A DNA stretch of 12,434 bases from Betaproteobacteria bacterium (GTDB taxonomy: Bacteria > Pseudomonadota > Gammaproteobacteria > Burkholderiales > Burkholderiaceae), in NCBI GenBank assembly GCA_018969885.1, contig JAGWXN010000071.1, positions 1 to 12,434 of the forward strand, in the 5' to 3' direction. Both the position numbers and the translations under genes were made by a program. How positions within the stretch are numbered: position 1 is the stretch's first letter; every line of letters starts with the position of its first letter. This document shows positions 258 to 9,921 of this stretch, piece after piece. The notes below the pieces were generated by a model, which did not search any database, was not told where the DNA came from, and saw only the letters and a program-made list of their open reading frames with translations.

Positions 258-1013
258 TCAGAACTCCGACAACAAGCGGGTGAATCCGCGGATACGGTCG
301 GTGATGCCGTTCATTCGCAGCGCATGCCAGTAGGTGGCCACGTTCACGCTGATCACCGGTTTGTCGAGCCAGCGCTCAGCCTCGTCAGCAAGACGGCCCA
401 TGGGGAGGTTCGCGCCGAACTGAACAATGGCTTCGATGTCATCGCCGTCAATCGATCTCATCGCGCGGATCATGTCCTGAGCGGTGAGAACGGAATAGGA
501 GGCGGGGTTGCTGCCCCGCATGTGATTAAACCGCAGGATCTCGTAGCCAAAGCTCCCGAGCACGCCCTGCAGTCGTGGCTCAATCGAGGGGTAGTAGGGT
601 TCCATCACTGCGATTCTGCGTTTAACGCCATGCGCCTTGAGCGCTGCAATCACCGCATCGGAGGCGAGGGCCACGGGAATATCGTGCCCGGCCACCTTGC
701 GGATCCGGGCTTTCAGGTGTTCACCCCACTCCGTATTTCCGCCCCACACCGCAAGCGCAGAAATGCCGAGTACAAACGCATTGGGCCTTGCATCCATGAC
801 GCTCGCCACGGCGGGTTCGAGCGCGCGGTCGATATCCTCGACCAGTTGATTGAAATCTTCAGAGCTGCTCACCGGGCGCTCGTGAATCACCATCCGGCCG
901 AGGTGATTGGTGATGCCCGCTGGCCGCATCTCATCGTATTCGGGCTGAACCACCGTATTGGTCGAAGGCGTCGCAACACCGAATGCCATTCGCCAGGCCA
1001 GATAGTCGCGCAT
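258..1013 (-). CDS. Maleate isomerase / arylmalonate decarboxylase-like protein (Asp/Glu racemase superfamily), cysteine-free
   Basis: 251 residues, the usual length for the maleate cis-trans isomerase/arylmalonate decarboxylase branch of the Asp/Glu racemase superfamily. The start is ATG at 1013, preceded by AAAGGA (1025-1020); a longer in-frame extension lacks protein character. Family marks visible are FGVATPSTNTVVQPEYDEM near the N-terminus (residues 11-29), VKRRIAVMEPYYPSI (130-144), and AIVQFGANLPM followed by DKPVISVNVATYW (195-229). In known members one or two catalytic cysteines sit after strands equivalent to residues 80-86 and 196-201. Here these positions read VLGISA and IVQFGA, and the whole protein has no cysteine. 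The normal Cys-based proton transfer or decarboxylation therefore seems impossible. It may be a non-canonical enzyme, a lyase using other residues, or a binding protein. It is the last gene of the operon, 37 bp after the flavoprotein gene. Confidence 0.8.
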   Translation of the reverse strand: MRDYLAWRMAFGVATPSTNTVVQPEYDEMRPAGITNHLGRMVIHERPVSSSEDFNQLVEDIDRALEPAVASVMDARPNAFVLGISALAVWGGNTEWGEHLKARIRKVAGHDIPVALASDAVIAALKAHGVKRRIAVMEPYYPSIEPRLQGVLGSFGYEILRFNHMRGSNPASYSVLTAQDMIRAMRSIDGDDIEAIVQFGANLPMGRLADEAERWLDKPVISVNVATYWHALRMNGITDRIRGFTRLLSEF

Positions 1014-1050
1014 GTCGGTCCTTTCGTTGAAGAGGGGTGAGGGTGCTGGG

Positions 1051-1968
1051 TCAGGCGATGACGCGTGCGGCCAGTTGGGCGGCCAGCGTTGCCTCGCCGA
1101 TCGCGACCGCGAGCCGCCCCGAGTAGCCGCTGCGAAGCGCACCCACGGCATACAGATGGGGGGTTCGCGTCTGAAGGCTGGCATCGGTGATGACCGCACC
1201 CTGCGGGTCGCGCTCGACCAGCGTGCCCAGCCAGTCGGTGCAAGGCGAAAGCCCGATGTAGGCGAATACTGCTTCGCAGTTGATTCGTTCAGGCGCCGTG
1301 GCGTAGCGATCGCGGATCATGACGCCTTCAAGTGCCTCGGCGCCTTCAAGCGACAGCAGTTCGCTATCCCATCGGAATTCGATCGACTCGATATCGGCGG
1401 CTCGAGCGGCAAAGCGCTGGCGTGCACGAAGCGTATCGCCGCGTACCACCATGACCACCGATTCGGCGTGACGGGCGAGGTGCAGCGCTTCCTGAAGGGC
1501 TGAGTCGCCCCCGCCCACCACGACCACTCGCCGCCCGCGATAAAGCCCAGCATTGCACCAGGCGCACTGAAGCAGTCCACGGTTGACGAAGCGCTCGGCC
1601 CCGGGAACGGAAAGCGGTTTCAGTGCGGCCCCTGTGGCGGCGATGACCTGGGCAGGCTGCCAGCGATCGTGGCCGCTCGCGAGCGTGAAGCCTTCGGTGG
1701 CGGGCTCGAGCGACTGGGCGTCCTGAGCGACCCGTTCGACACCGGCTTCAAGTCCCTGACGACCGAGCGAGTCGATCAACTCCGCTCCCGATATCGGGGC
1801 GGGGGCGCCGGGATAGTCATCGAGTACACCGATGTTGGCGACCAGACCGCCCGGCAGACCGGCGCCCGCAAGATGCAACACCCGCATGCCGGAGGACGCG
1901 GCCTCGAGGGCTGCCACATAGGCCGCCACGCCGCTACCCACTACCGCCAGATCAACCGGACCGCTCAT
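1051..1968 (-). CDS. Thioredoxin-reductase-like FAD-dependent oxidoreductase
   Basis: 305 residues, close to the usual 310-320 of low-Mr thioredoxin reductases. The N-terminal FAD site is VVGSGVAAYVAALEA (residues 9-23), the redox pair is C135-A-W-C138, and the second nucleotide-binding loop is VVGGGDSALQEAL (150-162). A family enzyme passes electrons from NAD(P)H via FAD to the CxxC pair and on to a thiol protein. Two usual features are altered. The 2'-phosphate-binding HRR motif reads V-R-G (175-177), though R181 remains. The C-terminal G-D that contacts FAD reads G-A (276-277, in LYAVGALRSGY). NADPH use is thus doubtful; NADH or another donor is possible. The ATG at 1968 overlaps the previous gene's stop (ATGA 1968-1965) and has a strong GAGGAGAAAGG site. 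Its place after the selenoprotein and its paralogue suggests it re-reduces them (inference). Confidence 0.9.
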   Translation of the reverse strand: MSGPVDLAVVGSGVAAYVAALEAASSGMRVLHLAGAGLPGGLVANIGVLDDYPGAPAPISGAELIDSLGRQGLEAGVERVAQDAQSLEPATEGFTLASGHDRWQPAQVIAATGAALKPLSVPGAERFVNRGLLQCAWCNAGLYRGRRVVVVGGGDSALQEALHLARHAESVVMVVRGDTLRARQRFAARAADIESIEFRWDSELLSLEGAEALEGVMIRDRYATAPERINCEAVFAYIGLSPCTDWLGTLVERDPQGAVITDASLQTRTPHLYAVGALRSGYSGRLAVAIGEATLAAQLAARVIA

Positions 1969-3167
1969 CCTTTCTCCTCGATGATTCGAGTGACTCGACA
2001 GGCCGGGTAACCCCAGGCCGGACACCACGCATGCTGGGGAACCGGTACGTCGCCCCCTGCGACGATCAGGGTGAGGTCGTCGGGCGATGCGGTGACCGGA
2101 ATCGAGCCGCGCGAAGCCGCATCCTGCACCCAATTCGGCCATCGCGTCTCGTCGCCAACGGTCCGATAAAGCCAGGAACTGCGCCACTGCTCGGGGGTCC
2201 AGCGCCCGCGTTCGTACAGGATCTGACGCACGGCCGCTTTGTCCAACCCCTGCCCAGCGAGCATTCTTGCCACGACGGGTGACAGGATCACTGTGGAGAT
2301 GCCTGCCCAGCGCATGGAGAAGGCTGAACTTGCACTGGCCATCGCGCTGGCAATTTCTTCCAATCCCCCGGTGACGTTGATCAGGGTTTCCGCGCGCAGC
2401 AGCGTGACCGCGCTCACCTCGGGTGCCAGCCCGAGATCGGTGTGCAGCGATGGCCACGGGCTGCCCGTCTCATCTTCTGCGATGCAAAGTGAATAGCGGG
2501 CCGCCTGGCCAAGACCGGCATAGGAGACAGCGCCCGGCCAGCCGCCACCGATGTTCTGCATCACGAACCGTAGCGCGCGACCGATGGACGCGTTTGCGCG
2601 CCAGCCTGGTCCGAGGAGACCAAATCCGCTGTTAATGCCGAGACGTTTCACGATCGGTCCGCTCACCACCAGAAGGGGCGCAACGTTCTCGTCGGTGGTC
2701 TGCACACCGCGCAGGTTGAAAGCGGGATCGAGTAAGGCCTCCACCGCCGCGACTACGATCGGGAACTGCTCCGGGCGGCACCCCGCCATCACCGCGTTAG
2801 CGGCAATTTTTTCCAGTGTTGCCTGTCCCTGAAGCGGCTCGAGCTCCCCCAGAACAGTGGTCGCGGGCCGCGAACTTCCGAGAAGCATCCGTTTGACTGC
2901 GCTCACCTCGGGCGGGACGATGGGAAGCCCATCGGTCCAACCCCGGTCCCCGTACAGTTCATTGATATCGGCGGCAGGGTTGGCCGAGGTGATCACCTCC
3001 ACGCGCTGTCTCGGGAACTGACCCACGCGAGGCGAGCGGGCCAAGAGCAAATCGCGCGCGTCGCTTTCCGCGATGCGTGCCGACACCGTGTCGTCGATCC
3101 AGGCGCCACCCGCCTGCTGGCCCACCGGAATCAGCAGCCAGTGCGTCGGAGGGCGGGCGTCGCTCAT
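1965..3167 (-). CDS. Sec-less paralogue of the C-terminal domain of the UGSC selenoprotein
   Basis: 400 residues starting at ATG 3167, 22 bp after the selenoprotein stop. The ribosome site is weak, so the start is the best guess and translation may be coupled. From about residue 65 on it aligns by eye with residues 205-575 of the neighbouring UGSC protein. GWTDGLPIVPP (77-87) matches GWSDGLPIVAP, AGCRPE (C130) matches AGCRPE (C270), SGPIVKRLGIN (169-179) matches NGPIARTLGFN, and NASIGRALRF (192-201) matches NTAIGRFWRL. It lacks the UGSC domain. Instead it has about 60 residues without recognised motif (LLIPVGQQAGG near 11-21). The C-terminal Cys pattern also differs (C382, C390). No signal peptide or membrane segment is evident. 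I infer that the two proteins form a hetero-oligomer, this one giving a second substrate-binding subunit. No biochemical function is known to me for this domain. Confidence 0.85.
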   Translation of the reverse strand: MSDARPPTHWLLIPVGQQAGGAWIDDTVSARIAESDARDLLLARSPRVGQFPRQRVEVITSANPAADINELYGDRGWTDGLPIVPPEVSAVKRMLLGSSRPATTVLGELEPLQGQATLEKIAANAVMAGCRPEQFPIVVAAVEALLDPAFNLRGVQTTDENVAPLLVVSGPIVKRLGINSGFGLLGPGWRANASIGRALRFVMQNIGGGWPGAVSYAGLGQAARYSLCIAEDETGSPWPSLHTDLGLAPEVSAVTLLRAETLINVTGGLEEIASAMASASSAFSMRWAGISTVILSPVVARMLAGQGLDKAAVRQILYERGRWTPEQWRSSWLYRTVGDETRWPNWVQDAASRGSIPVTASPDDLTLIVAGGDVPVPQHAWCPAWGYPACRVTRIIEEKG

Positions 3168-3189: not shown

Positions 3190-4917
3190 TCAAAGGGCTC
3201 CGACCCGCTGCTCCCAGTGATCAGGCAGACGGATCGGCTTGACCGTTGTGTAGCCCAGCATGCCGTTATGCGGCATGAACATGCAGTTGGAGCGTAGCGG
3301 ATCGCCGCATACGGCGATGATGATGTCCTCGGGTTTACAGACGATGGGGACCAACCGCTCGGGATCGCGCGACTCGCCGAACAGTTTGGGGGCCTTTCCA
3401 AGCCGGGTCATCTCGAAGAGCCCCCGCCTGCCGCCCGGCACCAGATTGGTCCAGTTCGTCATCAGGTTCTCGAAACGCCTGGCAGGCATGCGGGCGCGCT
3501 CAAAGAGCTGCTGCCGAAGCTCGGCCTTGGACATTCCGGCGCGTGCCAGCATCTCGGCGATCAGGGGACTCAACACCAATAGCGGCTGATAGGTACCGTT
3601 TGCGATCCCCACCACGAAGATCACTTCCCAGGTGGTGTGGGTCACCATGGCGTCAGCCAGATAGGGCAGCACCTTGTCGGGACTGTCGCCAAAGACCGAG
3701 ACGATCACATTACGTCCGGTAAAGCGCGAGATGGTGACCGCGTTGCCCCCTGCCGGCTCGCCGAGGTCTTGCGCGACGCTATTCCAGCCAATGCGCCCGA
3801 GCACTGCCTCGTTCTCGGCGAGCACCACATTCCATGTGCCACCGAACGTTCCCTTGTCGTTCTGGTGGAGCATGAAGCCCGCAACGTTCCGGAGGTAGAG
3901 TCGCCAGAACCGGCCGATGGCTGTGTTGGGTTGGAATCCGTCGCGTAGCGCGCCCTGCTCGGTGTTGAACCCCAACGTACGCGCGATGGGGCCATTGAGA
4001 ATGATCTGCGTTTCCGCGCCCGGTGTGTTGCCGCTGTGTTCAACACCATAGCGCGCATCGGCCATGGCTTCGACGAGCGCAACCAGCACGGGCATGTACT
4101 CAGGACGGCACCCGGCGATCACGCCGTTGACGGCCACGTTCCAGATGGTGGCCTGTCGGTTATCGGGCAGGAGCGTGCCAAGGATCTCGTCCGGGTCGCG
4201 GTCAACAAAGTCGAGGAAGGCCTGAATGCGCGCCATAGTGGGGGCAACGATCGGCAGGCCGTCACTCCAACCGTTCTCGATATAGAACCGGTTGATTTCA
4301 TCCACGGTGCCGGTGAAGACGATCTCTCTCGGGCCCGGATCCGGGCTTTGCGCGACCGTTACCACGGGCTCAGTGAGATTCCGAATCAGATCGTTGACGG
4401 TGGTGCCGAGCACACCCGCACGTAGTTCGTCGGGTCGCTGCACATCGACGTGACCCGGGACCTTGGCAAGCGGCAGGCTGGAATAGCCCAACCCTTCAGC
4501 GGTGGTACGGGCCTGCCCCAGGAAGCCCTCGCAGCAGAGCGATGAACTCGGAATGCCGGCCTGCTCAGCGACAGCGCTCACCCGCAACACGGCGGGCGTG
4601 CAGCTGCCTCAGCAGCCCATTCCGGAGACGACAGCGTCGACCTGCAGCGCCTTCAGCTTGTCCGGAAGCTCGGCGAGCACCCGGTGCTCGTCTTCGCCGT
4701 GAGTGGAACCAAATTGGTCCCAGTCGATGAAGCGGATGCCAGGGAATCGGCTGGCGAGCTCAGCTTTGAGCAACTCCCAGATCTCGTCGCCGCGGAAGAG
4801 GTAATCCCAGAGGAAGGCGATGCGCTTACCCTCCAGTGAGGTGAGCCGCGCCGCGAGCGGACGCGAGGTGATCGTTCTGGCGCTTCGCGGCCAGACGACC
4901 GACTCAAGCTGGTTCAT
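3190..4917 (-). CDS. UGSC-family selenoprotein with C-terminal DGLPIV domain; in-frame TGA read as selenocysteine (residue 103)
   Basis: Read through the TGA at 4611-4609, this is one 575-residue protein. The start is ATG 4917 with AAGGAA 6 bp upstream; a GTG at 4923 abuts that site and is less likely. Residues 1-132 form the UGSC domain: GKRIAFLWDYLFRGDEIWEL (about 29-48), a strand LQVDAVVSGMG, then C102-U103-G104-S105-C106, and AEQAGIPSSSL with vicinal C128-C129. U103 and C106 make a UxxC redox pair; C102-U103 could form a selenenylsulfide. Residues about 205-575 form a second domain with GWSDGLPIVAP (217-226), AGCRPE (C270), NTAIGRFWRLYLRN, and C537/C545 near the end; it is shared with the next gene. 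UGSC proteins are a known family with Sec, Cys or Ser at the U position and unknown function. Frame continuity, coding character on both sides, the exact motif and a SECIS-like hairpin argue against a nonsense mutation. Sec insertion needs selABCD elsewhere in the genome. Confidence 0.88.
4570..4608 (-). promoter_or_regulatory. Predicted bacterial SECIS hairpin
   Basis: A 39-nt hairpin begins directly after the TGA. The outer stem GGCAGC (4608-4603) pairs with GCTGTC (4575-4570), with one G-U. A small asymmetric internal loop (TG against C) follows, then CACG against TGAG with an A-A mismatch and a G-U pair. The upper stem is CCCGC (4596-4592) with GCGGG (4585-4581), and the hexaloop is CGTGTT (4591-4586). 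The loop starts 17 nt after the TGA and has a G in its second position. Both points fit the published description of bacterial SECIS elements (spacing about 16-37 nt, a G early in the loop). It would recruit SelB with Sec-tRNA. Pairing was done by eye, and GC-rich coding DNA can form hairpins by chance. Confidence 0.7.
4609..4611 (-). other. In-frame TGA predicted to encode selenocysteine
   Basis: The codon order around this TGA on the minus strand is GGA ATG GGC TGC TGA GGC AGC TGC, giving G-M-G-C-U-G-S-C. The downstream G-S-C completes the UGSC family motif, which is hard to explain if TGA were a random stop. The same frame stays open for 469 further codons. Confidence 0.88.
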
Positions 4918-4933: not shown

Positions 4934-5890
4934 TCAGTCTGCTTTGAGGCCTGCCTTGCGGATGATCGGCCCCCACTTTTCACGCTCGGTCTTTTCAAAA
5001 GCCGCCAATTCAGCGGGTGTGCCCCCCACCGGCTCGTGACCCAGTTGAAGGAGCCGCTGCTGCGTATCGGCTTGCGCGAGCACCTTGGAGACTTCGGCAT
5101 TGAGACGCGTGATGATGGCAGCCGGCGTACCTTTTGGGGCATAGAGCGCATTCCAGGCAGACACATCAAACCCAGGAACGCCCTGCTCAGCGACCGTGGG
5201 CACCCCGGGTAACAGCGCTGAAGGGTTGGCCGAGGTCACGGCGAGCGCGCGAAGCTTGCCGCTCGCGAGCCCGGGTTTGGCCGCGCTGATGGTGTCGATC
5301 AGGAGGGGTAACTGTCCTCCGAGCACGTCAGTGGCCGCTGCAGGCGATCCTTTGTAGGGCACGCCGAAGAGGCCGATTCCGGTGCGCTCTTTCAGCAACT
5401 CCACCACCAGCCGCGCCGTGGTGCTGGGCATGGCCATATCGGCCGCCTTGGGATTGGCGCGTGCCGCAGCCAGGACTTCGGCCACGCTCTTGAAAGAGGC
5501 CGAAGGACCCGCAGCAATCACCATGGGAAAGCGGCTCACCAGAATGATGGGCTCGAATGCTTTCTCCGCGTCGTAACCGGTGGACGCATAGAGAAAGGGA
5601 TTCATGGTCTGCGTGCCCGAGGTGCCCATGGTGAGCGTGTAGCCATCGGGTGCAGCACGCGCTGCCTCGGCGGTGCCGACGTTACCGCCTGCACCAGCGC
5701 GGTTTTCAATGAAGAAGCTCTGTCCAACGGCCTTGCTGAGTTGTTCGGCAACGAACCGGGTCGCGACGTCGGTGCCCTGGCCGGCCTGGTAGGCGACGAT
5801 GATTCGGACCGGGCGGGCAGGGTAGTCCTGCGCCTGTACGGTGGTAGAACAGGTTGCTGCCGATACGGCGAGCAGCGCGAGCCATTTCAT
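4934..5890 (-). CDS. Bug/TctC-family periplasmic solute receptor
   Basis: 318 residues, the typical length of the Bug (Bordetella uptake gene) family of extracytoplasmic receptors. A signal peptide is clear: MKWLALLAVSAATCSTTVQA, with likely cleavage after VQA (residue 20) before QDYPARPVR. Family marks are RIIVAYQAGQGTDVATRFVA (29-48), IENRAGAGGNVGTAEAARA, PDGYTLTMGTSGT and LLPGVPTVAEQGVPGF. Bug proteins bind small carboxylates or related ligands. Some serve TctAB-type transporters, others act as sensors, and most have no transporter gene nearby, as here. The ATG has an AAGGAG site 9 bp upstream. The next gene, the selenoprotein, starts 16 bp after the stop. The receptor probably captures the substrate of this pathway; the ligand cannot be told from sequence. 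Confidence 0.93.
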   Translation of the reverse strand: MKWLALLAVSAATCSTTVQAQDYPARPVRIIVAYQAGQGTDVATRFVAEQLSKAVGQSFFIENRAGAGGNVGTAEAARAAPDGYTLTMGTSGTQTMNPFLYASTGYDAEKAFEPIILVSRFPMVIAAGPSASFKSVAEVLAAARANPKAADMAMPSTTARLVVELLKERTGIGLFGVPYKGSPAAATDVLGGQLPLLIDTISAAKPGLASGKLRALAVTSANPSALLPGVPTVAEQGVPGFDVSAWNALYAPKGTPAAIITRLNAEVSKVLAQADTQQRLLQLGHEPVGGTPAELAAFEKTEREKWGPIIRKAGLKAD

Positions 5891-5940: not shown

Positions 5941-7173
5941 TCAGCGCGGCAACCGTTCGAGTACCGCTCCGCTTGCTTTCAGTCGCGCGCGCTCGGTTTC
6001 GCCGTAACCGTGCTCGGCAAGGATGGCGTCGGTGTCGGCTGCAAACGCAGGCGGCGCCTTGCCCGGGGCGCCCGGCGTTTCGGAGAGCTTCAGCGGAATG
6101 CCGGTGCTTTGATAGTCGCCTTCACCGGTCACGGCCATCTTGCGATGGCGGGTATGTTCGAGCGCAAACGCCTCTGGGATGGAATTGACCGGACCAATGG
6201 GTACGCCCGCCGCCATCAGTTCATCACAGAGGGGATAGCGAGTGCGCGCGGAGAGCGTTTTCTCAATGGTTTCCCGAAGCGCCGGCCGGTGCTGCATCCG
6301 CTGCGCGTTGTTCGAAAAACGTGGGTCGGTGAGCAGGTGGTTCAGTCCGACGTGTTCGCAGAAGCGGCGGAACTGACCGTCATTCACCACACCCAAAAAA
6401 ATCTCGCCGTCAGCGCAGCGATACCGGTCGTATGCCGCAATGCTGGGATGCGCGCTGCCAAGGAGCCCTGGCGTGCGGCCCGAATGCATCCAGTTGACCG
6501 CCTGCGGTACCAGGATGCTGAGTGCGCTGTCGAAGAGCGTTGCCTCGACCCGTTGTCCGCGACCCGTTCGCGTGCGTGCCAGGACCGCCATCAGGATGCC
6601 GCTCACCGCCATGTGGCCGGTCACCAGATCGACGATTGGAACGCCCACCCGGGTGGGGCCGGCCGCAGGATCGCCATTGATGCTCATCAGCCCGCACATC
6701 GCCTGCAGGACGGCGTCGTAGCCGGGCAGTCCGCCCAGTGGCCCATCGCGACCGAATCCAGAGATCGAGCAGTAGATCAGCCCCGGGAACCGGGGCAACA
6801 GATCGTGTTCAAAGCCCAGCCCCCATCGCTCCATGGTGCCGGGCAGCAGATTTTCGACCAGGATGTCGGCACCTTCCAGGAGGCGCAGCAGGACCTCACG
6901 TGCATCGGGGCGGGTCAGATCAAGCGCAAGTGCGCGCTTGCCACGATTGAGGTTGCCGAAATAGGCGGCCGACCCGATGGCGGTAAAGGGCGGGCCCAGA
7001 TGACGGGTTTCATCGCCACCCGGCGGCTCGACCTTGATGACATCGGCACCGTGATCGGCGAGCGTCTGCGTGCAGAGGGGGCCGGCGACGACGCGCGACA
7101 GATCGATGACGCGCAGGCCCTCGAGCGCGCGAGGCGGTCGATCGGGTGAGGTGGGTGGGCGGGTGTCGGTCAT
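5941..7173 (-). CDS. CaiB/BaiF-family (class III) CoA-transferase
   Basis: 410 residues, normal for the family. It has ALEGLRVIDLSRVVAGPLCT (16-35), HGADVIKVEPPGGDETR (41-57), NRGKRALALDL, ILVENLLPGTMERWGLG (104-120), and the catalytic aspartate D182 in GVPIVDLVTG. Class III enzymes move CoA between an acyl-CoA donor and a free carboxylic acid through an aspartyl-CoA anhydride. The ATG overlaps the preceding gene's stop (ATGA 7173-7170) and no clear Shine-Dalgarno is seen, so translation is probably coupled. The Bug receptor gene follows after 50 bp. Together with the ligase, this gives the operon a second way to make a CoA thioester; which enzyme acts on the imported substrate is unknown. 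Confidence 0.95.
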   Translation of the reverse strand: MTDTRPPTSPDRPPRALEGLRVIDLSRVVAGPLCTQTLADHGADVIKVEPPGGDETRHLGPPFTAIGSAAYFGNLNRGKRALALDLTRPDAREVLLRLLEGADILVENLLPGTMERWGLGFEHDLLPRFPGLIYCSISGFGRDGPLGGLPGYDAVLQAMCGLMSINGDPAAGPTRVGVPIVDLVTGHMAVSGILMAVLARTRTGRGQRVEATLFDSALSILVPQAVNWMHSGRTPGLLGSAHPSIAAYDRYRCADGEIFLGVVNDGQFRRFCEHVGLNHLLTDPRFSNNAQRMQHRPALRETIEKTLSARTRYPLCDELMAAGVPIGPVNSIPEAFALEHTRHRKMAVTGEGDYQSTGIPLKLSETPGAPGKAPPAFAADTDAILAEHGYGETERARLKASGAVLERLPR

Positions 7174-8309
7174 GTTCGAGAGGGGAGTTCCACAATGCCA
7201 GTGCCGAGCACCGACAGTTCCTGATCCTGATTGTGGGCCTGCTGCTCGATTTCGACCAGATGCCTTCCGTTTTCCACGAACTTGCGGAGCACCCGGCCCT
7301 GGATGTAGAGCAGGTCGCCCTCGGGGTTGTGGCGCCGGATCTTGCAGGTGGCCTTGCGCAGAAACCCGCGGTCGCCCATCCAGTTGGTGAGGTGGTGGGT
7401 GAGCCATGATGCCCGCTCGGGACCGTAGTCATAGGCGCCTGGCGCGCCCACCTCGAGCGCGAAGTCTTCCTCCCAGTGCACCCGCTCGGGTACATCGGGA
7501 ATCCCGAAGCGATTGGTGATGCCCACGCCCGGATGCGCGTCAATCAGCTTCCAGGCGAGTTTGTTGGCTCGGATGTAGAGCCCCCCCCAGCCCTGCGCGT
7601 AGGCAATGAACCCGGTGACCGTCATGGGACCCTTCAGCATGACGGGCAACGCCTCGTTTTCTGATACATCGTCCCAGAAACGAGGAGTTGCGCCCCGAAC
7701 CGGCTCATCGCGATAGAGCTTGTAGGCCTCGGCAATCTCTTCGGCCGAGTAGCGACGCGGAGCGCGCTCTCGCGTGTGCTGATACTTGGTGCCCTGCTCG
7801 CGCGCGGTATCGCGCTCGGTGCGAAAGCACCAGCTGTCGGCCTCAGCGAGCAGCTCGCCCTTCTGATTGTAAAAATTCACGTGATAAATCTGTTGAACCG
7901 CCCGGCCTGCAAATCGTGTTTCATGCAGCACCAGATCTTTAAGCCACGACTCGGTACGGATTTCGTCATTTCGGCGCACGGGCAGGTGCCAGGTCCAATC
8001 GGAGCCCGACCACATGGCGTGAATGCCGGGCAAGCCGCCGACGTAACCGGAGATGATGCGGTTGGTGGAAAAAAGAAAGCTTGGCAGCGCGACGATGCCG
8101 CCATAGTGGCTGCCCGCCGCGTAGTCGGGATCGCACCAGAGTGGGTTATCGTCGCCGATGCCGTGAGCGTAGTGGCGGATGTTGTCGCGAGTGGCCTCAT
8201 GGCACCAGGGTTCAGCCTGGTTTTCGATCTTGACGCCGATGCGGCGGCGCAGCGCATCGAGGCCGCTTTCGGTGATTTTCGGGAATGAACGTTCCGCTGA
8301 CGTTGACAT
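7170..8309 (-). CDS. Two-domain hotdog acyl dehydratase (FAS1-like N-terminal plus MaoC-like C-terminal)
   Basis: 379 residues, starting at ATG 8309, 4 bp after the ligase stop, with GGAG about 11 bp upstream. The N-terminal hotdog domain holds HYAHGIGDDNPLWCDPDYA (46-64), a variant of the hydratase motif GDxNPxHxD. The aspartate (D53) is kept but the usual His is W58, which I recall as common in the 'FAS1-like dehydratase' group. A second domain starts near residue 205, with PMTVTGFIAYAQGWGGLYIR (228-247) and a C-terminal strand-rich part (GDLLYIQGRVLRKFVENGRHLVEIE). Fused pairs of this kind hydrate or dehydrate bulky or unusual acyl-CoAs. Position between ligase and CoA-transferase fits a step on a CoA-bound intermediate. 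The substrate is unknown. Confidence 0.87.
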   Translation of the reverse strand: MSTSAERSFPKITESGLDALRRRIGVKIENQAEPWCHEATRDNIRHYAHGIGDDNPLWCDPDYAAGSHYGGIVALPSFLFSTNRIISGYVGGLPGIHAMWSGSDWTWHLPVRRNDEIRTESWLKDLVLHETRFAGRAVQQIYHVNFYNQKGELLAEADSWCFRTERDTAREQGTKYQHTRERAPRRYSAEEIAEAYKLYRDEPVRGATPRFWDDVSENEALPVMLKGPMTVTGFIAYAQGWGGLYIRANKLAWKLIDAHPGVGITNRFGIPDVPERVHWEEDFALEVGAPGAYDYGPERASWLTHHLTNWMGDRGFLRKATCKIRRHNPEGDLLYIQGRVLRKFVENGRHLVEIEQQAHNQDQELSVLGTGIVELPSRT

Positions 8310-8313
8310 GGTT

Positions 8314-9921
8314 TCAGGCTCCAGGAGAAGAGGGGGGTGCGGCGCGCGGCACATCCGACTGCGCTACGTCCGTCTGATGGGCGAGCGCCTCACGGTCACG
8401 AAGGATTTTGCGATTGATCTTTCCTGCCGGGTTTTTGGGCAGCTCGGTCACGAACACGACCTTTCGCGGATACTCGTGCTGGCTCAGATTGTTGCGGACC
8501 CGGGTCTGGATTTCTTCGATGAAAGCGCTGTCACCAGCCCGGCGAGAGACGATGAATGCCTTTACCACACTGCCGCGGAGCGCGTCTGGAACGCCGATTG
8601 CGGCGGCCTCCTGAACGTCAGGATGTTTGAGAATGGCGTCTTCGATTTCCACTGCGCTCATGGTCCAGCCGGCTGAAATGATCACGTCATCGGCGCGGCC
8701 GCCGTGCCAGAAATAGCCCTCTTCATCGATACGTCCCAGGTCTTTGGTGGGCACCCAGCGGTCTCGGCGCCAGACCTTCAGTTCGCCGGTGACACCAGGC
8801 GCGCAGGGCTGGCCGCTCGCGTCCTGAACCTCAACGCGGCCGCCTGGTACGGGCTTTCCGAGCGAGCCTGGTTTTACCGGAAAATCGGGGGCGCCAGGGT
8901 AGTTCACCAGCACCACCCCAATCTCGGTCGTGCCATACATGCTGCACACCGGCGCACCAAACGTGGCTTCGGCAAAGCTGAGTGTCTCGGTATCAATCGG
9001 CTCGCCGGTGAACGAGAGCTTACGAAGCTGGTAACGGTAGCGGGTTGCTACGCCACTATTTCGCATCATGCGGTAATGCGTGGCCGCAGCCGACAGGTTG
9101 GTGAAGCCCTGTTCGGCAAGTGCCTGCAGCAACCTGGCGGCATCAAACTTCCCGGCATAAACGCCGATGGTGACGCCGAGCGCAAGCGGCGCGAGCGTGC
9201 CGTGCCACAGGCCATGACCCCAGGCGGGCGAGGATGGGCACATGAACCGGTCTCCCGGACGGATACCCGTGCCGTAGAGCGCGGCCAGCATCAGCGTGAC
9301 AAGCGCGGCGTGCGTGTGGCGCACGGCTTCGGGCAGTTCGCGGGTGGTTCCCGAGGTGTATTGAAAGATTGCGAGGTCGCTCGCCCGGGTGTCGGTCTGA
9401 AACACGTCGGGCCATTGCGCGAGCTCGGCCTGGAGCGCGGAGTCGTCGTAGAGACAGGTGAGGCCGGCGATGCCAGCCACCGCCTGGGCTTTGTCTGGCA
9501 CGGTGACTAGGACACGCGGCTCGCAGTCGAGCACTCTGAGCCGCACCCCGTCGGGCCCAAACAGCGTAAAGAGGGGCACTGCGATGGCGCCGAGTTTGAT
9601 TGCACCGAAGATCGCCGCATAAAAGAGACGACCAGGTTCCAGCATGACCGCCACCCGGTCGCCGCGGCTGATACCGCGTGCGGCAAGCAGATGCGCGAAG
9701 CGTGCTGAATCAGCAGAGATCTGGCGAAAGCTGAGGAGTTCGTCAGCTTGGCCAGGGCGGACCACGATCACCGCGGTGCGGTCGCCAGCGGCATGCCGGT
9801 CAATGCACTCGTGAGCGATATTGAGCCGCTCCCGGTTGCCGTCGAAGAGGGACCACAGCGCATCTTTTGAGCAGTGCTGCTGCGCGTCGGCGTAGCGGCT
9901 GAATTCGGTGAGGAGTGGCAT
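8314..9921 (-). CDS. AMP-forming acyl-CoA ligase/synthetase (ANL superfamily)
   Basis: 535 residues. It activates a carboxylic acid with ATP to an acyl-adenylate and then to acyl-CoA. Motifs in order are the phosphate loop YTSGTTRELPEAVRHTH (188-204), MYGTTEIG (328-335), a variant of TGD (TKDLGR, 392-397), YFWHGGRADDVIISAGW (403-419), and the C-terminal PKNPAGKINRK with the expected catalytic lysine K501. The phosphate loop departs from the usual SGTTGxPK: G-x-P-K is replaced by R-E-L-P-E-A-V. The last 25 or so residues after the catalytic region (Ala/Pro-rich) look unstructured. It is the first gene of the eight-gene operon. The promoter lies in the 113-bp gap before the divergent regulator. 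The ATG at 9921 has no good Shine-Dalgarno, so the exact start is less sure. The substrate type is not evident. Confidence 0.94.
   Translation of the reverse strand: MPLLTEFSRYADAQQHCSKDALWSLFDGNRERLNIAHECIDRHAAGDRTAVIVVRPGQADELLSFRQISADSARFAHLLAARGISRGDRVAVMLEPGRLFYAAIFGAIKLGAIAVPLFTLFGPDGVRLRVLDCEPRVLVTVPDKAQAVAGIAGLTCLYDDSALQAELAQWPDVFQTDTRASDLAIFQYTSGTTRELPEAVRHTHAALVTLMLAALYGTGIRPGDRFMCPSSPAWGHGLWHGTLAPLALGVTIGVYAGKFDAARLLQALAEQGFTNLSAAATHYRMMRNSGVATRYRYQLRKLSFTGEPIDTETLSFAEATFGAPVCSMYGTTEIGVVLVNYPGAPDFPVKPGSLGKPVPGGRVEVQDASGQPCAPGVTGELKVWRRDRWVPTKDLGRIDEEGYFWHGGRADDVIISAGWTMSAVEIEDAILKHPDVQEAAAIGVPDALRGSVVKAFIVSRRAGDSAFIEEIQTRVRNNLSQHEYPRKVVFVTELPKNPAGKINRKILRDREALAHQTDVAQSDVPRAAPPSSPGA

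Follow-up and report, generated by a model that had tools for sequence, protein, structure and literature searches.

The window, here the whole 12,434-nt stretch of betaproteobacterial DNA that was analysed, contains a run of eight genes on the same strand, with short gaps or overlaps between them. Their order is acyl-CoA ligase, MaoC-like, CaiB, TctC-type binding protein, UGSC fusion, a paralogue of its C-terminal domain, thioredoxin-reductase-like, and arylmalonate decarboxylase-like. The genes and the features of the fusion are as follows.

8314 to 9921, minus strand: AMP-forming acyl-CoA ligase (PF00501, 205.8 bits).
7170 to 8354, minus strand: MaoC/FAS1-dehydratase-like protein (PF13452, 44.1 bits).
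5941 to 7173, minus strand: CaiB-type CoA transferase (PF02515, 405.7 bits).
4934 to 5890, minus strand: TctC-type solute-binding protein, whose stop lies 16 nt before the selenoprotein gene (PF03401, 197 bits).
3190 to 4917, minus strand: predicted UGSC-fusion selenoprotein gene, 575 codons and stop (frame, Pfam, and AlphaFold model with pLDDT 87.8).
Residues 7 to 169 of the fusion: UGSC domain (Pfam profile PF24696).
Residues about 196 to 575 of the fusion: C-terminal domain, without Pfam model.
4609 to 4611, minus strand: in-frame TGA, codon 103, probably read as selenocysteine (TGA in relatives, Cys in full-length homologues).
4581 to 4596, minus strand: predicted core SECIS hairpin CCCGC-CGTGTT-GCGGG, which begins 12 nt past the TGA (invariant codons and fold).
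4570 to 4608, minus strand: longer predicted SECIS stem with a lower helix, the lower stem differing among loci.
1965 to 3167, minus strand: paralogue of the C-terminal domain, 400 aa, without the UGSC part, 22 nt after the selenoprotein gene.
1051 to 1968, minus strand: thioredoxin-reductase-like flavoprotein with CAWC, its start overlapping the preceding stop (TIGR01292).
258 to 1199, minus strand: arylmalonate decarboxylase-like gene, start uncertain (PF17645, 46 bits).

The fusion gene spans one frame of 575 codons from the ATG at 4917 to the final TGA stop at 3192-3190. The first-pass annotation described two ORFs as one frame parted only by the TGA at 4611-4609, and its coordinates, motif, and lengths were reproduced. 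This TGA is the only internal one, in the context GMGC-U-GSCTP, and the ORF 3' of it would encode 466 aa from a GTG if taken alone. All 10 main genes of the window are terminated by TGA. Thus, UGA is not a general sense codon here and keeps its meaning as a stop.

The whole frame matches the Pfam UGSC family (PF24696) over residues 7-169 at 93.3 bits, with a cut-off of 25, and the first 102 residues alone match at 31.1 bits. The narrower NCBIfam equivalog UGSC_fam (NF041046) is missed, as the score of 46.7 bits is under its cut-off of 125. In the 13 aligned rows that reach this region, both positions 103 and 106 are occupied by Cys when the TGA of the window is read as C. With this UxxC motif and the Pfam match, the family assignment proposed from the sequence is upheld. 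C106 is kept in 19 of 19 TGA genes. C129 is also invariant in the 19 Sec genes; among 46 aligned homologues, however, only 34 have Cys there.

The homologue search found 3433 proteins, and the figures given here are from the 120 listed. Twelve of these are full length and without exception carry Cys in place of the TGA, a kind of homologue that the first-pass annotation had named as confirmation. Another 106 records are 430-480 aa in length; nearly all of them begin a few residues behind the site, and one begins later. The other two are longer, odd-sized proteins. It had been claimed that such a gene would be annotated as a 5'-truncated protein of about 466 residues with the UGSC domain lost. 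The truncation is found in these 106 of the 120 listed records, in which the gene call starts behind the active site, but the PF24696 match is still present in 103 of the 106. The UGSC domain is thus clipped, not wholly lost.

Close relatives do not have a sense codon at this position; a nonsense mutation confined to this strain would predict one. TGA is found at codon 103 in all six loci from genome contigs, four with 93-98% and two with 68-69% identity. The 19 genes of the codon alignment, which include five of these loci, all have it as well. The nearest relative, G005, is 94% identical to the window over 5 kb. The dN/dS ratios for six pairs (among the window, G001, G002, and G003) are 0.040-0.122 before the TGA and 0.037-0.063 after it. 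Purifying selection is similarly strong on both sides of the TGA. The low ratios on both sides and the UGSC match of residues 1-102 alone go beyond chance. A record titled Bordetella parapertussis (a MAG, L003) is 86% identical to the window over most of its length, and this name looks wrong.

The codon test on the 19 TGA genes revealed that 4 of 108 conserved columns of degenerate amino acids never vary in codon. They are P108 (CCC), A109 (GCC), V110 (GTG), and R112 (CGG), and all four are in the hairpin. A random pick of four columns would give exactly these about once in 5.4 million (1 over 108 choose 4, about 2e-7), a figure which is only a guide because the columns and the related sequences are not independent. 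The test retained L196-L198 and left out L006 (broken frame with 8 stops) and the distant fusions L116, L118, L199, L201, and L202. Folding of the 46 nt after the TGA gave a z of -2.42, with 3 of 200 shuffles equally stable, which alone is only moderately unusual. The hairpin is absent from two distant Cys genes, L119 and L200. The hairpin 12 nt after the TGA is the predicted SECIS. SECIS hairpins are predicted to differ by UGSC subfamily (L063-L076, L077, and L023-L032). The predicted loops are CGUGNU in close fusions, UGUAU-type or AGU-type in short forms, and another in the G344 fusion.

The first-pass annotation pointed to selA, selB, selC, and selD as the genes to look for, and they were found in relatives of the window. 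SelB and tRNA-Sec are present in all six genomes of the first loci, as is SelD; SelA was seen in the four betaproteobacteria among them. The nearest relative, G005, has SelB, tRNA-Sec, SelA, and SelD. In a second set of 18 genomes, all 16 with TGA forms have SelB above the cut-off, and neither of the two with distant Cys fusions (G284 with CGIC and G712 with CGLC) does. This set overlaps the first six genomes by two (G004 and G006) and omits G662 (fragments) and G383 (C-terminal domain with TGA). The Cys fusions without SelB are distant, at 33% and 30% identity, and a tRNA-Sec match is also absent from G284. SelD was found in 9 of 10 genomes tested, with none in G712 and two in G284. In G001, G002, G003, and G005, SelD lies within open frames of 771 aa, which exceeds the length of SelD by itself. 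These frames are perhaps the Ndh-SelD fusion mentioned in the available text of PMC2398784.

The association was also observed in the family of G002. Among its 74 genomes, 23 have a UGSC gene, which bears TGA (short or fused) in 21. SelB is found in 19 of the 21 TGA-UGSC genomes vs. 13 of the 53 others (Fisher p 2e-7), and tRNA-Sec in 18 of the 21 vs. 17 of the 53 (Fisher p 6e-5). No SelB was found in two of the TGA-UGSC genomes: in G321, the UGSC gene is at the end of a contig, and in G325, a contig breaks off within the SelA next to one UGSC gene. In G340, SelB and tRNA-Sec accompany a short UGSC that contains no stop, so in this direction the pairing of UGSC and SelB is not a strict one. 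For G306, which has both SelB and a TGA UGSC, no tRNA-Sec match was obtained. G292 and G343 have two tRNA-Sec matches each, and G292 has no SelB match.

The computations support the reading frame, the Sec/Cys exchange, the SECIS, the machinery in relatives, and the gene neighbourhood, and from these we infer protein production. The predicted product is one 575-residue selenoprotein with Sec at codon 103, with a probability of around 90%.

Three SelB-family genes each were observed in G001, G002, and G005, and two in G003; each of these four genomes has one tRNA-Sec over the cut-off. The first type of SelB is located beside selA and tRNA-Sec, and also beside fdoGH in G002, G003, and G005. The in-frame TGA of fdoG is seen in G002 and G003. 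The second type follows a gene with TGA in the motif CAY-U in G001, G002, and G005. The CAY-U-TTAHSY gene is directly upstream of the second SelB in three lake betaproteobacteria, at L038:2454-5630 (minus), L041:754-3951 (plus), and L045:4516-7713 (minus). Neither half of this gene has a Pfam match at E 1e-4, so the label AhpD-like is taken from its CxxU motif alone. The third type is downstream of the UGSC fusion at a distance of about 7 kb and follows apparent TRAP transporter genes (read by eye), with a minus-strand gene between the fusion and the SelB. In G005, this SelB is in two pieces at contig ends. The three types are 32-35% identical to one another, and all are under purifying selection (dN/dS 0.10-0.24). 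The three SelBs of G002 match the C-terminal winged-helix model PF09107, which is presumably the SECIS-binding part of SelB.

In a class-level sample of 274 genomes, a SelB match (E 1e-40) was found in 12, and more than one only in G002. In the family of G002, two SelBs each are also found in G344, G338, and G331, one of those in G331 being cut by a contig end. G344 has a compact cassette (L116:4367-10600) of tRNA-Sec, a TrxR-like gene, SelB, a TctC-type protein, and a distant UGSC fusion; its second SelB and tRNA-Sec are elsewhere, beside fdo. In the alphaproteobacterium G406, the fusion, the paralogue, the TrxR-like gene, tRNA-Sec, and its one SelB are all together.

A SelB tree of 47 rows was built by a quick method, with labels assigned from the nearest gene found. 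It omits L221 (on the same contig as L123), SelBs shorter than 400 aa, and SelBs missed by the motif filter; those absent include L117 and L129 (beside fdo), L141, L143, and L148. The fdo-linked SelBs are in one part of the tree (support 98), and the short-UGSC-linked SelBs are in another (support 99) with seven rows lacking a UGSC label. The AhpD-linked SelBs form one clade (support 100). The three UGSC-linked SelBs of this lineage also form one clade, with a stem of 2.07 (support 100). The labels require 15 changes vs. a shuffled mean of 24.8, with none of 200 shuffles as low, a contrast inflated by near-copies. Taken by itself, the short-UGSC label does not cluster clearly, with 69 of 500 shuffles reaching a value as low. 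The six SelBs linked to UGSC fusions do not form a single clade (three changes are needed), and the deep branches are poorly supported (14). The SelBs of L130-L134 are in the short-UGSC-linked part without UGSC nearby, and a short TGA UGSC is elsewhere in their genomes.

In the tree, the UGSC-linked SelB sits on a very long stem, and its best TIGR00475 match covers only the first 258 positions. It has no match to two other SelB winged-helix models that the fdo-type SelB matches. In G001, GHVNHGKT replaces GHVDHGKT. Two of the three (G001 and G003) have Lys for an otherwise conserved Arg, reading VDKSF where other motif-matching SelBs read DR; we take this Arg to be in the Sec pocket. The UGSC-linked SelB may be changing its function. 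Some deltaproteobacteria have selC*/selB* systems, in which, according to the available part of PMC7609411, a second SelB lies downstream of a tRNA-Cys gene. If the linked SelB were such a factor, it would read UGA as cysteine with an unusual tRNA-Cys(UCA). Its divergence, its position near the fusion in relatives, and the VDKSF sequence would fit such a role, as would the presence of a second SelB in one genome. Unlike in the systems described there, the extra SelB is here near selenoprotein genes, and the genome has an ordinary tRNA-Sec, a match to which is found in all six genomes checked. ARAGORN found no tRNA in L036, L039, and L042, and an Rfam search of six loci, of which three contain the linked SelB, gave none at gathering scores; either could miss odd tRNAs. 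Moreover, just one SelB exceeds the cut-off in alphaproteobacteria that share this gene and its core hairpin. Reading as cysteine is thus improbable.

Still less probable is the production of two proteins, of about 102 and 466 aa, by termination and reinitiation without recoding. The GTG just behind the TGA, where most listed records start, would allow it, but the full-length Cys homologues are one chain, the predicted fold continues across the site, where Sec occupies a strand-helix turn, and the frozen hairpin and the link to SelB point to recoding. A nonsense mutation, pseudogene, or sequencing error would explain a single in-frame TGA that splits an ORF, but hardly the same TGA in six of six separately assembled genomes, the selection on both sides of it, and the frozen hairpin codons.

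Given selenocysteine at codon 103, the three SelBs raise a further, rather doubtful possibility, that Sec decoding is divided in this lake betaproteobacterial lineage. One tRNA-Sec pool would serve three anciently diverged SelBs, each mainly reading the SECIS of the nearby selenoprotein, and selenoprotein and SelB would travel as modules. The hypothetical partners of the SelBs are FdoG, the CxxU AhpD-like protein, and the UGSC fusion. The hairpins for FdoG and the AhpD-like protein are predicted by folding only. The 15 alphaproteobacterial genomes with a close fusion have the same core hairpin and one SelB over the cut-off, which argues against a strict need for a dedicated SelB. Several SelBs linked to their own selenoproteins had no precedent in the open-licence literature searched, and three deeply diverged SelBs with one detected tRNA-Sec in close relatives are apparently new. 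Two complete sel operons are described for Photobacterium profundum 3TCK in the available text of PMC5330540. It is similar in having more than one Sec cassette per genome, as does G344 with two SelBs and two tRNA-Sec; it differs from G001, G002, and G005, in which three SelB lineages share a genome with a single tRNA-Sec above the cut-off. Should each nearby SelB really serve its own selenoprotein, one cell would contain several natural, orthogonal SelB-SECIS pairs, with bearing on the evolution and spread of recoding and on the engineering of Sec insertion.

The window protein shares with known UGSC selenoproteins (PF24696 and NF041046) the UGSC motif, the Sec/Cys exchange, the downstream hairpin, and the machinery in related genomes. 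It differs from them in its fusion to a C-terminal domain of roughly 380 residues and in scoring under the NCBIfam cut-off. UGSC is a common selenoprotein family of aquatic samples. In the parts of the publications available, 255 Sec and 21 Cys UGSC forms are reported from GOS samples (PMC2398784), UGSC table entries are 26 and 33 (PMC5029168), and the functions of such selenoproteins are called largely uncharacterised (PMC13188914). The available text of PMC2398784 also notes a UGSC/Unknown_1 fusion, which by description resembles the window protein in that UGSC is joined to a conserved, functionally uncharacterised domain and the bacteria are aquatic. As the family and a UGSC fusion are already in print, the selenoprotein is a well-supported addition to a known family. 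The same text suggests a Trx-like fold; the best structural matches of the UGSC-domain model from the window are Rossmann-like. In the fusion model, U103 is between the strand 95-101 and the helix 106-119.

The conserved module of UGSC fusion, paralogue, and thioredoxin-reductase-like protein is apparently new. Sixteen loci have a fusion of at least 56% identity; in 15 of them the paralogue adjoins the fusion, and in 14 the TrxR-like gene is near it. The exceptions are L195, which stops at a contig end, and L190, which has no TrxR-like gene in its 12 kb. Neither gene was found within the 18 kb searched at L196-L198, which have TGA fusions of 49-50% identity. The TrxR-like protein matches TIGR01292, the model for true thioredoxin reductases, at 217 bits, under its cut-off of 343.45. 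Its CxxC was checked in the window and at 14 loci, with L116 and L118 (distant fusions) included and L001 and L005 omitted, and all 15 proteins have it.

In the proposed mechanism, the SECIS hairpin would redirect ribosomes reading UGA at codon 103, where SelB would deliver Sec-tRNA-Sec. The N-terminal UGSC domain would thereby hold Sec between a strand and a helix, with the conserved Cys three residues on (UxxC). The catalytic cycle that appears most likely takes its redox steps and its substrate from the neighbouring genes alone. The selenol of U103 would carry out redox chemistry on an organic acid, either free or as its CoA ester, and the neighbouring transport, ligase, CoA-transferase, and hydratase genes would import and activate that substrate; this substrate class is a tentative assignment. 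A selenenyl-sulfide would then form between U103 and C106, and the adjacent flavoprotein would reduce it again via its CxxC. That the flavoprotein is the electron donor is somewhat more likely than not. Glycine and D-proline reductases (GrdB and PrdB) are also Sec enzymes, which work with further subunits and thiol reductants. The fusion has no Pfam match to GrdB or PrdB, UGSC being the only family reported at E up to 0.01. Together with the flavoprotein reductase and the additional copy of the fused domain, the fusion makes up a module that can be tested as a biochemical unit.

The C-terminal part of the fusion would constitute a separate family, with its paralogue encoded by the next gene; the two are 30% identical over 335 columns (E 4e-37). 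The model of this domain (pLDDT 86.7) showed no clear or convincing fold relative in the structure comparison. Many short UGSC genes adjoin a separate gene for a homologue of this domain (L120-L126 and L152-L155), so the two parts are associated whether or not they are fused. A match limited to the C-terminal domain is found in many alphaproteobacterial proteins about 480-560 aa long (G629:C2, G442:C100, G576:C65, and others). A C-terminal-domain match at G383:C6:27826-28875 contains a TGA, and it is possibly another selenoprotein.
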